NCBI RefSeq assembly: GCF_004323185.1
Contig: NZ_NAPS01000001.1
Location: forward strand, 3,360,351 to 3,392,846
DNA from: Westiellopsis prolifica IICB1
GTDB taxonomy: Bacteria; Cyanobacteriota; Cyanobacteriia; Cyanobacteriales; Nostocaceae
Direction: 5' to 3'
DNA: 32,496 nt
Shown: positions 13,250-23,446 of the stretch, piece by piece
How positions within the stretch are numbered: the stretch's first letter is position 1
Layout: the number at the start of each line of letters is the position of its first letter
Notes under the pieces: generated by a model
What the model was told of the DNA's origin: nothing
The model's input: the letters and a program-made list of their open reading frames with translations, nothing else
Databases searched by the model: none
Program-made: the position numbers and the translations under genes

Positions 13250-15285
13250 ATGACAATTCGCACTTTTGACCAGTTGTTTAATAGGATTAGCAAACGTCCA
13301 GCCTTGGCGATCGCACTGTCAACTTTGTGGTTGATTTTGGTTGGTGGGATCGCATTTTTTTGGCATTTGGGTAGTATTGGGCTAATAGATGAAACCGAGC
13401 CTTTGTTTGCTGAAGCTTCTCGGCAAATGTATGTAACAGGCGATTGGATCACACCATTTTTTAACGGTAAAACTCGCTTTGATAAGCCTGCTTTGATTTA
13501 CTGGTGTCAGGCGATCGCATACAACATTTTCGGTGTAAATGAGTGGTCGGTGCGTCTACCAAGTGCGATCGCGGCAATGAGTGTAATTGCCCTAGCATTC
13601 TACACTGTACAATGGCAACTTGCAAAACAAGATGCCTTAGAACAAGTTTTTCGTCCTTCCAGACGCTGGTTAACAGCAGGTTTAGTAGCAGCTGTAATGG
13701 CACTCAATGCCGAAATGATTGTCTGGGGAAGAACTGGTGTCTCAGATATGTTGCTGACTGGCTGTATTGGATCGGCTTTGTTGTGCTTTTTTATGGGATA
13801 CGCAAGTCAGGAGGGATCGGGGATCGGGGATCGGGGATCGGGGATCGGGGACAGGGGACAGGGGGGACAGGGGGGACAGGGGAGACAAGGGGGACAGGGG
13901 GGACAGGGGGGACAAGGGGGAATTTCTCTTTCCCAATCCCCAATCCCCAATAATTGGTATTTGGCTTGTTACGTACCTGTCTCTTATACACATCTAGATG
14001 TGTATAAGAGACAGGAATTTCTCTTTCCCAATCCCCAATCCCCAATAATTGGTATTTGGCTTGTTACGTACTCATTGCTGGTGCAATTTTGACTAAAGGC
14101 CCTGTGGGTATTGTTTTACCTGGGTTGATTATTGGTGTATTTTTGCTTTATTTGGGCAAATTGCGAGAGGTTGCGCGGGAAATGCGCCTCTTAGTAGGTA
14201 TGCTAATTATCTTGGGTTTATCAGTGCCTTGGTATGTCCTAGTAATTTGGCGCAATGGCTGGAATTACATTAACTCCTTTTTTGGCTACCACAATATTGA
14301 ACGCTTTACAGAAGTAGTCAATGGTCATAGAGCTCCTTGGTACTTTTATTTTTTGGTAGTATTACTGGGTTTCGCTCCTTACTCGGTATACTTGCCCCTA
14401 TCAATGGCAAGGCTAAAATTTTGGCAGCGTCAGTATTGGCGTTCTCAAGAGCGATCGCAACAACTTGGTATTTTTGCCTTTTTCTGGTTTGTGAGCATCT
14501 TCGGCTTTTTTACCATTGCTGTCACCAAACTTCCTAGCTATGTTTTACCCTTAATGCCAGCAGCAGCAATTCTAGTGGGACTTTTGTGGAGCGATTTCTT
14601 CCAATCCCACACCCCCAGACGCGATGAATCGCGTCTCTACATTACTTCCCACACTCCCCCCACCCCTCTCTCTCCCTCCTCCCTGCTTTGGAGTGGCTGG
14701 ATCAATGTAGTGTTTGTATCAGCGATCGCAGTAGCGCTGTTTTACGTACCCCGACTAATAGGTGCTGATCCGGCTGCACCCGAATTTCGCCAACTGCTGC
14801 AACAATCAGGTTTAACAACTTTGGGAAGTGTGATCTGGTTAGTTTGTGCTGTGATATTGGCTGTGATCATACTGCGTCGTCGTTGGCGTCTATTGATTGG
14901 CGTAAATTTATTGGGGTTTGCGCTGTCTTTACTTTTTGTCCTGACTCCAGCTTTATTTTTAATAGACCAACAGCGTCAGTTACCTTTGAGAGAATTAGCA
15001 GCGATCGCAGTCCAAGCGGAAAAACCAGGTGAAGAATTAGTCATGGTTGGCTTCCAAAAACCCACCGTTGTTTTTTACAGTCAACGCCCTGTAAATTACA
15101 TCAAAATGAGTGCAGCCGCAGGAGATTATGTCAGAACTCAGGCTGTAAATAAAACACAATCTGACTCAATTTTAGTTTTAGCTCAACCGAAAAAGTTTCC
15201 CGAAATGGGTTTGCAACAAGATAGTTATCAAAGTTTAGGAAAAAGTGGTGCTTATCAATTAATTAGAGTGCCTTTAAATAGGTAA
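13250..15285 (+). CDS. Membrane glycosyltransferase, GT39/ArnT-like (interrupted by an assembly artefact)
   Basis: A polytopic glycosyltransferase of the PMT/ArnT (GT39) type, which transfers a sugar from a lipid-linked donor outside the membrane. The first part has the family signature LIDETEPLFAEASRQM, with the catalytic-type acidic residues, and FDKPALIYW. The second part has LTKGPVGIVLPG and many membrane helices. As given, the frame breaks: 13250-14092 and 14056-15285 are in different frames. Between them lies a 38-bp Nextera mate-pair junction adapter (13977-14014) flanked by a 57-bp duplication. Deleting one copy plus the adapter (95 bp) joins the two frames exactly (...NNWYLACYV + LIAGAILTKG...), giving 646 residues. 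The coding region also contains two in-frame repeat insertions (13812-13951 and 14606-14690), both apparently in loops. No ribosome site is visible; heptamer repeats run up to the ATG. A hairpin terminator follows at 15478. Confidence 0.85.
13812..13951 (+). repeat. STRR insertion within the glycosyltransferase coding sequence
   Basis: GGGGATC units, then GGGGGACA units, then CCCAATC units fill this stretch in frame. They encode a Gly/Asp/Arg/Gln-rich loop (SGIGDRGSGIGDRG..., GGQGGQGRQGG...) between the helix ending CFFMGYASQ and the one starting NNWYLACYV. It is the same repeat type as the intergenic block at 62-290, so it is repeat DNA accommodated in a coding region. Confidence 0.85.
13977..14014. 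other. Nextera mate-pair junction adapter (assembly artefact)
   Basis: CTGTCTCTTATACACATCT (13977-13995) is followed directly by its reverse complement AGATGTGTATAAGAGACAG (13996-14014). This is the Tn5 mosaic-end pair that forms the circularisation junction in Nextera mate-pair libraries. The genomic 57 bp before it (13920-13976) are repeated exactly after it (14015-14071). Translated, it yields the well-known contaminant peptide VSYTHLDVYKRQ. It is not biological sequence. Confidence 0.97.
14606..14690 (+). repeat. Dispersed palindromic repeat inside the glycosyltransferase gene
   Basis: The AGACGCGATGAATCGCGTCT palindrome (14617-14636) with C-rich flanks matches the intergenic unit at 11171-11230, including the CTACATTACT(C/T)CCCACAC right side. 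Here it is read in frame as SHTPRRDESRLYITSHTPPTPLSPSSLL, a hydrophilic loop between the helices ending LLWSDFFQ and starting WSGWINVVF. Confidence 0.8.
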
Positions 15286-15934: not shown

Positions 15935-16122
15935 GTTTCATCGACACCAGTCACCCGAACCTTGAAAACCGCATAAATTCGTTGAGTGGTGTCGATGCTT
16001 TATGCAGCAACGTTTCCAGGCTGCAAAATCGATGATTTTTTGAGGATTTTTTGTTCAAATCTAGAGTGGTGTCGATCAGGGGGTCTAGAACCCTCTCTGT
16101 GTAAGCGTTCTAGATGTGAACT
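15935..16122 (+). promoter_or_regulatory. Leader region of CRISPR array 1
   Basis: This is the AT-rich stretch immediately upstream of array 1. It holds GAACCTTGAAAACC (15957-15970), also present in the leader of array 2 in the same orientation relative to transcription. It carries three copies of ATCGACACCA or its complement TGGTGTCGAT (15940-15949 minus sense; 15987-15996 and 16067-16076 plus sense). The first two form an inverted repeat around the shared motif. An 8-bp stem TCTAGAAC/GTTCTAGA (16084-16114) stands just before the first repeat. Confidence 0.6.
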
Positions 16123-16443
16123 CTTTACAATCACATCGCCCCGAAAGGGGATGGAAACTTGGTACCAGCCAAATTGAGACAAGTAGTGTTGTCTCTTTAC
16201 AATCACATCGCCCCGAAAGGGGATGGAAACTTGGGTCGAATTCCCAGCTTGAAGCCGAGCTGTCGCCTTTACAATCACATCGCCCCGAAAGGGGATGGAA
16301 ACGGTCCCATATGTTGACGAAACCAATTTCTATTAGCTTTACAATCGCATCGCCCCGAAAGGGGATGGAAACGTTAAACGCGGTCTGTTATGCGCGGTCA
16401 CGATGCACTTTACGATCGCATCACCCCGAAAAGGGATAGGTGC
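16123..16443 (+). CRISPR. CRISPR array 1 (5 repeats, 4 spacers)
   Basis: The repeat is 36 bp, CTTTACAATCACATCGCCCC then GAAAGGGGATGGAAAC, with an inner CCCC-GAAA-GGGG hairpin. Repeats start at 16123, 16195, 16267, 16337 and 16408; spacers are 36, 36, 34 and 35 nt. The first three are identical, the fourth has one change and the fifth is degenerate (end GGATAGG), so the trailer is at the right and transcription runs on the plus strand. This agrees with the GGAAAC 3' end expected for a repeat handle. No cas gene is in the window. A possible unrelated degenerate half-repeat (TTCACCCCCTCACGGGGATT) lies near 16474. Confidence 0.95.
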
Positions 16444-16555: not shown

Positions 16556-16843
16556 TCATTGATTTGCGATCGCGTAGCGCCTACTTTGCACCATCGCTTT
16601 GACGTTTGTGACGAATGTCGTTTCATTCATAAAGAACGTCGCGACGTTAGCCACAAACGTCGTGATGTTCTTTATGGATGTCGCGACGTTACCCACAAAC
16701 GTCGCGATGTTACCCACAAACGTCGCGATGTTACCCACAAACGTCGCGATGTTACCCACAAACGTCGCGATGTTACCCACAAACGTCACGACGTTACCCA
16801 CAAACGTCGCGATGTTACCCACAAACGTCGCGATTTTCTGCAT
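16556..16843 (-). CDS. Possible heptapeptide-repeat protein encoded by the 21-bp array
   Basis: An open frame of 95 residues (MQKIATFVGNIATFVGN...) reads through the tandem array as heptads of the form ATFVGN(I/V), with Asn kept at one position even in the divergent units (IKN, VAN, FMN, VTN). Its ATG lies two bases after the stop of the secreted protein gene on the same strand (TGA-CC-ATG), so translational coupling is possible. Against this, a 21-bp period keeps several frames open automatically. Hydrophobic throughout; function unknown. Low confidence that it is expressed. Confidence 0.3.
   Translation of the reverse strand: MQKIATFVGNIATFVGNVVTFVGNIATFVGNIATFVGNIATFVGNIATFVGNVATSIKNITTFVANVATFFMNETTFVTNVKAMVQSRRYAIANQ
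16563..16604. repeat. Small dispersed repeat, copy 2
   Basis: GCGATCGCGTAGCGCCTACT with its extension TTGCACCATCGCTTTGACGT is the second copy of the repeat at 15294-15335. This copy is not interrupted by a MITE and runs straight on into the first degenerate units of the 21-bp tandem array. Confidence 0.75.
16615..16837. repeat. 21-bp tandem repeat array
   Basis: About ten and a half units of ACGTCGCGATGTTACCCACAA. Units from 16699 to 16837 are nearly identical; those at 16615, 16636, 16657 and 16678 are increasingly divergent toward the left. Each unit contains the near-palindrome ACGTCGCGATGT, which in two units (16636, 16783-type variants) approaches the perfect ACGTCGCGACGT. The period is a multiple of three, so frames stay open in both directions. 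It lies between CRISPR array 1 and a minus-strand gene. Confidence 0.93.
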
Positions 16844-19647: not shown

Positions 19648-20975
19648 GTTTCAATCCCTAATAGGGATTAATTGAAGTTGCAACATGATGTTCCTAGTTC
19701 TACAGGAAGAGGTATTGCGTTTCAATCCCTAATAGGGATTAATTGAAGTTGCAACCACTCCAATCCCCCTTAGTGCAAACGATATACACGTTTCAATCCC
19801 TAATAGGGATTAATTGAAGTTGCAACCCTGAACTAATTACTGATCCTTATCCAGATCTTGGTTTCAATCCCTAATAGGGATTAATTGAAGTTGCAACTGA
19901 TTTAAATCGTTTTCCTACAGGAGAATCAATAAGTTTCAATCCCTAATAGGGATTAATTGAAGTTGCAACGCAAACCATCAACCGTGTTGGATGCGGCGTC
20001 GATGTTTCAATCCCTAATAGGGATTAATTGAAGTTGCAACTTTTGGTTTACTCTGGGGCGGCTCAAGTATATTTGTTTCAATCCCTAATAGGGATTAATT
20101 GAAGTTGCAACTTCTTGCGCGATCGCATCAACAGTCTTTCCTTCTTGCGTTTCAATCCCTAATAGGGATTAATTGAAGTTGCAACCAACTTTGCGAACAG
20201 CATGGGATTCAGTTTGAAGAGTTTCAATCCCTAATAGGGATTAATTGAAGTTGCAACACTATAGCTACCCTCCAAAATGTTGGAAGCATTAGTTTCAATC
20301 CCTAATAGGGATTAATTGAAGTTGCAACTGAGAGAATCCGTCAATGGGTGATTAATGGTTTAAGTTTCAATCCCTAATAGGGATTAATTGAAGTTGCAAC
20401 ATTTCCAAGCAAAACATATCCATCTCCATCTACGTTTCAATCCCTAATAGGGATTAATTGAAGTTGCAACACAATTCTGGCGATTGATGCAAAATGCATT
20501 CAGTGTTTCAATCCCTAATAGGGATTAATTGAAGTTGCAACCAATTCTGGACAGATTGATCGCGATACTGCAAGTCGTTTCAATCCCTAATAGGGATTAA
20601 TTGAAGTTGCAACTTCTGAATACAGGCAAAGAAAAGAGTTACCGGAAGTTTCAATCCCTAATAGGGATTAATTGAAGTTGCAACAAATCTCAGCTTTACG
20701 TGTACGATTTCGCAATTTATTAGTTTCAATCCCTAATAGGGATTAATTGAAGTTGCAACACAAGTCATATCCACCCAAGGCACGATCAATCTGTTTCAAT
20801 CCCTAATAGGGATTAATTGAAGTTGCAACGATTTACAAGATGTCCAACAATATGATTTAGAACCAAGTTTCAATCCCTAATAGGGATTAATTGAAGTTGC
20901 AACGAGCGATCGCTTGAAACTTTAGGAAGGATGAGTGAGTTTCAATCCCTAATAGGGATTAATTGAAGTTGCAAC
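19648..20975 (-). CRISPR. CRISPR array 2 (19 repeats, 18 spacers)
   Basis: Nineteen identical 37-bp repeats. Read on the plus strand the repeat begins GTTTCAATCCCTAATAGGGA and ends TTAATTGAAGTTGCAAC. Spacers are 33-38 nt and all differ. A degenerate twentieth repeat lies at 19578-19614, where only the GTTAATAAAAGTTGCAAC half is recognisable, separated by a 33-nt spacer-like stretch. Degeneracy at the left marks the trailer, so the array is transcribed on the minus strand. In that sense the repeat ends GGGATTGAAAC, the usual handle of cyanobacterial I-D/III-type arrays. The leader is then at 20976 and beyond. No cas genes are in the window. Two spacers contain a HIP1 site. Confidence 0.98.
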
Positions 20976-21527: not shown

Positions 21528-22985
21528 ATGCTCATAGTTCAGAAATACGGTGGTACATCTGTCGGTTCCGTTGAGCGCATTGTCTCTGTCGCCCAACGCG
21601 TTTCTCAAGCCGCAAAAGCAGGAAATTCCATAGTGGTGGTAGTTTCTGCAATGGGTAAAACAACTGATGGACTTGTGAAATTAGCTGCGGAAATCTCTAA
21701 AAATCCTTGCCGTCGAGAAATGGATATGTTGCTTTCTACCGGTGAGCAAGTATCTATTGCGCTGGTGAGTATGGCATTGCAAGAATTAGGACAACCAGCA
21801 ATTTCTTTAACTGGCGCTCAGGTAGGAATTGTCACCGAAGCTGAACACACCCGCGCCCGAATTTTACATATTCAAACAGAACGGATTAAAAAGCACCTAG
21901 AAGAAGGCAAAGTTGTTGTCGTTGCAGGATTTCAAGGTATTAGCAGTACCAATGCATTAGAAATCACAACCTTGGGACGAGGCGGTTCCGATACTTCTGC
22001 GGTGGCGATCGCAGCTGCTTTACAGGCAGATTTTTGTGAAATTTATACCGACGTACCAGGGATTCTGACTACAGACCCCCGTCTAGTTCCAGAAGCGCAG
22101 TTAATGAGTGAAATCACCTGCGATGAAATGCTAGAACTCGCCAGTCTCGGCGCAAAAGTCTTGCATCCCCGCGCCGTCGAAATTGCCCGTAACTATGGAA
22201 TGCCCTTGGTGGTACGCTCTAGCTGGACAGATGATCCCGGCACATGGGTAACTTCATCCCAAACTAAAGAGCGATCGCTAATCAATTTAGAAATTGCCCG
22301 TCCGGTAGATAATGTCACCTATGATACTGACCAAGCCAAAGTAGCCTTGTTACGTGTTCCAGATAGACCGGGTGTTGCAGCCAGCCTATTTGGCGAAATT
22401 GCTCGTCAAGATGTAGACGTAGATTTGATTATTCAATCAATCCATGAAGGTAATACAAACGACATCGCCTTTACCGTATTTACACCAATCTTACCAAAAG
22501 CCGAAGCCGTAGCAGCTGCCATTGCTCCTGTTCTGAGCAGTCACAAGAGTAACCAAGCAGAAGCAGCCGAAGTCATGGTGCAGCAAAATATTGCTAAAGT
22601 CAGTATCGCCGGTGCAGGGATGATTGGTCGTCCCGGAGTCGCCGCCAAGATGTTTGCCACCCTAGCAGCAGCAGACGTAAACATCCAAATGATTTCTACC
22701 AGTGAAATCAAAGTCAGCTGCGTAATTGCTGCCCAAGAATGCGATCGCGCCGTCGCCGCCCTGCGCCAAGCATTTGAAATAGAAGCAGAAGAAAAGGAGG
22801 ACAAGGGGGACAAGGAGGACAAGGGGGACAAAGGAGCAGAGAGCAGGGTGCAGGGTGCAGGGAGCAGGGAGACAAAGGAGAATGACCAATCCCCAATCCC
22901 CAATCCCCAATCCCCAATCCCCGATGCCCGATCCCCGATCCCCCCTTACTTAGTGTCGCTCATGATTAGAACCAAGCACGTCTAG
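21528..22985 (+). CDS. lysC: Aspartokinase, catalytic domain plus first ACT pair (split gene)
   Basis: Aspartokinase makes aspartyl phosphate, the first step to lysine, threonine and methionine. The start MLIVQKYGGTSVGSVERI holds the KYGGTS motif; STGEQVSIALV, GRGGSDTSAVAIA, TDVPGILTTDPRLVP and SLGAKVLHPRAVE complete the kinase domain (about residues 1-245). Two ACT domains follow (about 265-345, with VPDRPGVAASLFG, and 355-418, with GRPGVAAKMFATLAA). The cyanobacterial enzyme normally has about 600 residues and a second ACT pair. Here an STRR insertion (from about residue 421) replaces the linker with a Lys/Asp/Gly and Pro/Ser-rich tail, and the frame stops at 22985. The truncated product still equals a standard two-ACT aspartokinase in length and could be active with altered feedback control. 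The frame break could also be an assembly error. Confidence 0.88.
   Translation: MLIVQKYGGTSVGSVERIVSVAQRVSQAAKAGNSIVVVVSAMGKTTDGLVKLAAEISKNPCRREMDMLLSTGEQVSIALVSMALQELGQPAISLTGAQVGIVTEAEHTRARILHIQTERIKKHLEEGKVVVVAGFQGISSTNALEITTLGRGGSDTSAVAIAAALQADFCEIYTDVPGILTTDPRLVPEAQLMSEITCDEMLELASLGAKVLHPRAVEIARNYGMPLVVRSSWTDDPGTWVTSSQTKERSLINLEIARPVDNVTYDTDQAKVALLRVPDRPGVAASLFGEIARQDVDVDLIIQSIHEGNTNDIAFTVFTPILPKAEAVAAAIAPVLSSHKSNQAEAAEVMVQQNIAKVSIAGAGMIGRPGVAAKMFATLAAADVNIQMISTSEIKVSCVIAAQECDRAVAALRQAFEIEAEEKEDKGDKEDKGDKGAESRVQGAGSRETKENDQSPIPNPQSPIPDARSPIPPYLVSLMIRTKHV
22796..22945 (+). repeat. STRR insertion within lysC
   Basis: GGAGGACAA/GGGGGACAA units, then GCAGGGTGCAGGGAGCAGG, then AATCCCC units fill the linker between the second and third ACT domains. 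The composition is the same as in the blocks at 62-290 and 13812-13951. The repeat is read in frame as EEKEDKGDKEDKGDKG... up to SPIPNPQSPIPD; after it the coding frame no longer matches the downstream ACT domains. Confidence 0.85.
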
Positions 22986-23446
22986 TCAATCAGCAAGTTA
23001 AATCTTGACCAGGAACCGCGGGAAGACTGTTTGGACTTTTAGCAGATCACAATATCAGCGTAGATATGATCATTCAGTCCCAACGCTGCCGTATAGTCAA
23101 TAGTGTGCCGATGCGTGATATTGCTTTCACTGTGACACGGATGGATGCAGAAGCAGCACAGAAAATGTTGCAAGCAAAAGCAGCAGAATATGGTTGGGGT
23201 GAAGTAGCTTTAGATCAGGCGATCGCAAAAGTCAGCATCGTTGGTTCTGGTATGGTAGGACAACCAGGCGTTGCAGCGAAAATGTTTGCAGCCCTAGCAC
23301 AGCATCATATAAACATTCAAATGATTACTACCTCAGAAATCAAAATCAGTTGTGTAGTAGCCCAAGAAGAAGGTGTCAAAGCACTGCAAGCAATTCACAC
23401 AGCATTTGGACTAGCAGGTAGCGAGAAATTTATAGTTCCTGCGTAG
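22955..23446 (+). pseudogene. lysC: Detached C-terminal ACT pair of lysC
   Basis: In a different frame from the upstream part, the sequence continues the expected aspartokinase: VAHD-stop-NQARLVNQQVKS-stop-PGTAGRLFGLLADHNISVDMIIQSQRC, then two ACT domains through NIQMITTSEIKISCVV to the normal end at 23446. The two nonsense codons (TAG 22967-22969, TGA 23006-23008) and several missense changes lie only in the first 20 codons; the remaining 146 codons are intact. The first ATG (23066) would drop the first strand of the third ACT domain, and no good alternative start exists. It is either a decaying gene end, a separately used regulatory fragment, or a misassembled junction. Confidence 0.7.

Follow-up and report, generated by a model that had tools for sequence, protein, structure and literature searches.

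The locus and its gene

The window, by which is meant the whole 32,496-nucleotide stretch of Westiellopsis prolifica IICB1 DNA analysed here, carries between positions 13250 and 15285 two called reading frames that, judged by profile matches and relatives, belong to one gene for a membrane glycosyltransferase of the general PMT_2/ArnT-like kind. The features that bear on its interruption are as follows:

13250 to 13976, forward strand: genuine first part of the predicted membrane glycosyltransferase gene, 242 codons and one base (no internal stop; Pfam PMT_2)
13813 to 13921, forward strand: short tandem repeats with units of GGGGATC (7-bp) and GGGGACAGG (9-bp) (Tandem Repeats Finder; direct-repeat search)
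13920 to 13976, forward strand: 57-bp stretch, first copy of a direct repeat (single copy in each of the 67 distinct relatives aligned across the joint)
13977 to 14014, no strand: 38-bp palindromic mate-pair junction adapter (exact match and inverted repeat; identical to the ring adapter in PMC7357533)
14005 to 14007, forward strand: TAA within the adapter, the upstream limit of the right-hand frame (frame analysis)
14015 to 14071, forward strand: second, spurious copy of the 57-bp stretch, 100% identical to 13920-13976
14072 to 15285, forward strand: genuine remainder of that gene, with 403 whole codons and a stop counted from 14074 (open frame shared in 93 of 99 fetched loci)
14090 to 14092, forward strand: TGA that ends the left-hand frame after it has read through the adapter (frame analysis)

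Pfam PMT_2 (PF13231) matches 13250-13918 of the left piece with 30.9 bits, above its cut-off of 26.1, and likewise an open relative in the same-genus genome G003 (29.8 bits). The two pieces also match consecutive parts of the NF009784 (ArnT) profile, 12-128 and 175-337; searched apart, they score 54.5 and 67.1 bits and do not reach its cut-off of 567, and because these scores lie so far below it the gene is not named ArnT itself. Compared with PMT_2/ArnT-like membrane glycosyltransferases, the conserved parts are here separated by a repeat-filled linker of variable length, with 16 to 77 residues (median 36) in 85 distinct relatives and 58 in IICB1, counting one 57-bp copy; the IICB1 linker contains the GGGGATC and GGGGACAGG tandem repeats, which lie directly left of the joint.

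Repeats are found elsewhere in the window: a CRISPR-like array at 19648-20975 (37-bp repeat, 19 perfect copies, ~71-bp spacing), a second CRISPR-like repeat at 16121-16440 (CTTTACAATCACATCGCCCCGAAAGGGGATGGAAAC and variants, about five copies) and an array of a 21-bp unit at 16635-16834 (9.5 copies; more than one frame is open). The aspartate kinase gene at 21528-23446 also falls into two frames, 21528-22985 and 23066-23446, which part at a repeat-rich linker, here with no adapter. Both of its parts match NF005656, and all four relatives searched carry the gene undivided, as an open frame 630-663 residues long; the split may be genuine, or the repeat may have been miscounted.

The junction adapter and the repeated flank

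Positions 13977-14014 consist of two 19-bp Tn5 mosaic ends set back to back with 0 nt between the arms, a perfect palindrome of 38 bp: CTGTCTCTTATACACATCT occupies 13977-13995 and its reverse complement 13996-14014, each with 0 mismatches. Scanning the window at up to 3 mismatches gave no third match to CTGTCTCTTATACACATCT; the number expected by chance was 0.01, and two matches were reached in none of 100 shuffles. Mosaic ends are described, in the available text of PMC4248319, as in vitro replacements for wild-type ends. The available text of PMC7357533 prints the identical 38 bases as a biotin-labelled ring adapter, ligated onto sheared DNA and used to circularise fragments of ~4 kb, while PMC4074385 and PMC6298255, in the text available, set out the Nextera mate-pair scheme as tagmentation with junction adapters, circularisation, shearing and capture, with trimming needed. 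The 38 bp therefore prove a mate-pair circularisation library of that design, as an initial sequence-only reading had held, and do not prove a brand. That reading's attribution to Nextera names the likeliest kit, and is left unproven because the same adapter is also printed for a shear-and-ligate protocol (PMC7357533). In the collection of papers searched, none contained the peptide letters YTHLDVYKRQ or MCIRDR.

A repeat search of the window confirmed that the 57 bp immediately left of the adapter recur immediately to its right with 100% identity; the tool reports 58 bp, since the last G of the adapter matches the genomic G at 13919. The consequences for the reading frame are straightforward. 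The left-hand frame (13250-14092, 280 aa) reads VSYTHLDVYKRQ through the adapter and terminates 18 codons past the start region of the second 57-bp copy. Excision of both adapter and second copy, 95 bp in all, had been said to shift the frame by two and to unite the halves into a 646-residue protein. The length is upheld by codon arithmetic (242 codons at 13250-13975, one across the joint and 403 up to the stop), with no stop inside either piece, and the frame is indeed restored; yet 57 bp are 19 whole codons and frame-neutral, so that the 38 bp alone shift the frame by two and break the gene. Deleting the adapter by itself also restores the frame, and frame repair is thus no proof against the second copy; it was set aside as such in favour of the evidence from relatives. 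The further contention that neither half-gene is real holds for both called frames as bounded, and fails for 13250-13976 and 14072-15285, which are genuine coding sequence.

The same gene in relatives

Both gene pieces were translated and searched separately, and 99 loci were fetched. One open frame holds both pieces in 93 of these; the left piece is missing in four, and in two (L016 and L035, with identical figures and apparently one gene) the pieces lie on different frames. The gene at L016/L035 is a relative of 92-94% identity, and its frame discord, in its own assembly, also falls at the repeat linker. In G003 (8 contigs) the gene is open and has no adapter, and the repeat region is of different length.

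This variation of the linker raises the question of whether the adapter, though artefactual, marks a real pattern, in which short tandem repeats have entered coding genes of the clade in frame, in spacers such as this linker, and may have truly split the aspartate kinase gene in this strain. We regard this as rather unlikely.

The comparison bears more directly on a second possibility, that the adapter is an artefact and the 57-bp direct repeat is real in the strain. Being 19 codons long, such a repeat would keep the frame, and the adjoining stretch is repeat-rich and differs in length among relatives, as described above. Against this, both copies are bounded exactly by the adapter, and the relatives have one copy only. 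After removal of the six loci without both pieces on one frame and of five identical-frame duplicates, 88 distinct open relatives remained, 21 of which were unusable at the joint, as their alignment ends in the variable linker. The other 67 align up to the joint on either side, and in each of them the pieces are separated by a single residue, encoded by the codon that crosses the joint, so that neither the adapter nor a second 19-residue copy fits there. This supports the earlier claim that both are foreign to the gene. Seven close loci were inspected as well: each has the 57-bp unit's 3' 30 bp just once, and none contains the mosaic end. With exact adapter-bounded flank repeats of other lengths also present at unrelated sites of another genome (see below), a real 57-bp repeat is very improbable.

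Adapter remnants in this and other assemblies

The IICB1 assembly (G000; 7.31 Mb, 29 contigs) contains the adapter, or a part of it of at least 15 bp, at nine places, and a control pattern at none:

C1:1977566, C1:3374327 (the glycosyltransferase site), C7:5543, C8:138463 and C8:772527: complete 38-bp adapter
C8:2059706: adapter minus 3 bases
C1:1313042, C8:138336 (near C8:138463) and C8:202462 (adjoining N): partial relics

Several of these sites have features of their own. At C1:1977566 the adapter is preceded by 85 bp, themselves following 30 N, that recur exactly, the copy ending 1,122 bp downstream of the start of the right flank and sitting among other near-identical repeats (95% and 86%) in a repeat-rich stretch; at C8:2059706 the 95 bp before the adapter, which follow one N, recur exactly in a copy that ends 1,637 bp downstream. 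Patches of 85 and 95 bp that start right after N are what gap filling with one half of a mate-pair read might leave. At C7:5543 the adapter replaces 61 bp still present in an otherwise matching copy elsewhere in the genome (no mismatch over 1,197 bp to the left and 291 bp to the right). At C8:772527 the right flank begins with 143 bp that match C1:1863454-1863596 at 99%, and such a match to another contig is what a chimeric junction would give. The warning that other repeat-rich spots in the assembly may be unreliable has support in the divided aspartate kinase gene, a second repeat-rich place in the window where a frame is broken.

Another genus of the same family supplies a second affected genome, G013, with 15 core adapter sites, some of which have flank repeats of 149 and 158 bp. 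The 24 bp that end at the adapter's left edge were searched for again in 11 to 20 kb of sequence around the core sites, 21 in both genomes together. A further copy on the same strand was present at nine sites, and at seven of these it lay downstream of the start of the right flank, at distances of 57 (the glycosyltransferase site), 149, 158, 161, 1122, 1637 and 7670 bp, the last a case supported by 25 bp only. At the other two it lay upstream (-293, inside a tandem repeat, and -1291). A left end recurring downstream, found at seven of the nine with two against, is the geometry that a circularised fragment demands.

An exact flank repeat of the 57-bp type was also considered as a constant companion of the adapter and rejected as such, since repeats of at least 8 bp occur at only one of six core sites in G000 and five of 15 in G013. 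The adapter-bounded exact repeats of G013, at unrelated sites, measure 8, 16, 17, 149 and 158 bp.

The adapter was also sought more widely. Among 388 sampled genomes of the order, a set that contained neither G001-G003 nor G013, the complete 38 bp occurred in one, that of IICB1; together with the nine unrelated sites in G000, this makes the adapter a property of one assembly and not of a lineage. No copy turned up in 50,697 phage records or in 5,426 E. coli genomes; 5 of 72,556 plasmid records (four genera) contained it, and a viral collection had seven adapter stretches on six contigs. The adapter as a natural element was rejected, as such counts are a contaminant type of scatter. The five plasmid records (L168-L172) are enterobacterial and labelled complete, each with the complete 38-bp adapter; no annotated gene lies over it in the gene tables shown, which are incomplete.

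Origin of the junction

One might ask whether a simpler library would suffice, namely an ordinary paired-end Nextera library in which a read ran through a short insert into the adapter. The 19-bp mosaic end is common to all such kits, and short inserts do reach the adapter, as noted in the available text of PMC3906532. Beyond the mosaic end such a read would continue with CCGAGCCCACGAGAC or GACGCTGCCGACGA, the trimming sequences given in the same available text, whereas here, as at all five complete sites in G000, the mosaic end is followed directly by its mirror half and not by i5/i7 primer sequence; moreover, at other sites fragment ends 1.1 and 1.6 kb apart have been joined. Paired-end read-through is accordingly hard to credit. 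A real Tn5-type insertion, whether left over from transposon mutagenesis in the laboratory or a palindromic element of natural origin, would account for the transposon end and for a directly repeated flank, and is nonetheless practically negligible as an explanation, given that there is no transposon body between the ends, that the flank repeat, of 57 bp at this site and of other lengths or lacking elsewhere, differs from the 9 bp that Tn5 makes (9-nucleotide gaps, in the available text of PMC10037646), and that the element occurs at nine places in one genome and complete in none of the other 387 sampled.

We conclude that an untrimmed mate-pair junction read has almost certainly been incorporated in the assembly, and that the gene, as read from the sequence, only appears broken. 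In the course of library preparation the two ends of a genomic fragment, each bearing a Tn5 mosaic end, would have been ligated together into a circle, so that the 38-bp palindrome would mark where the fragment's end meets its start. An assembler or gap filler, stalled beside the G-rich tandem repeat, may then have reached the palindrome from either side and made the join across it, with the result that one 57-bp genomic stretch would be written twice. The tandem repeats beside the joint are a likely cause of the assembly failure. The doubling itself could have arisen in two ways: two contigs, each ending in adapter and sharing a true 57-bp overlap, may have been joined over the palindrome, or a fragment of 57 bp may have ligated to itself; we infer that contig joining is the likelier. 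Self-ligated tiny circles are disfavoured as a general route by the absence of a flank repeat from most core sites, by flank repeats as short as 8 and 17 bp and by the 61 bp missing at C7:5543, all of which favour a joining of ends over the palindrome.

Significance and comparison with known systems

The interruption has no significance as biology, and its value is one of quality control: both called proteins are wrong, and the peptide SYTHLDVYKRQ provides a handy flag for mate-pair adapter artefacts. Of the adapter relics in this assembly, the one at the glycosyltransferase site coincides with a copied flank, that at C7:5543 with a missing stretch and that at C8:772527 with a transplanted one. 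The feature is an assembly artefact of an already known kind and not a biological one. Set beside the circularisation (junction or ring) adapter of mate-pair libraries, whether Nextera mate-pair or that of PMC7357533, it is alike in all 38 bases and likewise joins fragment end to fragment start; that adapter has to be trimmed before assembly, according to the available text of PMC4074385. It differs in that it sits in a finished assembly, not in reads, together with a 57-bp copied flank.
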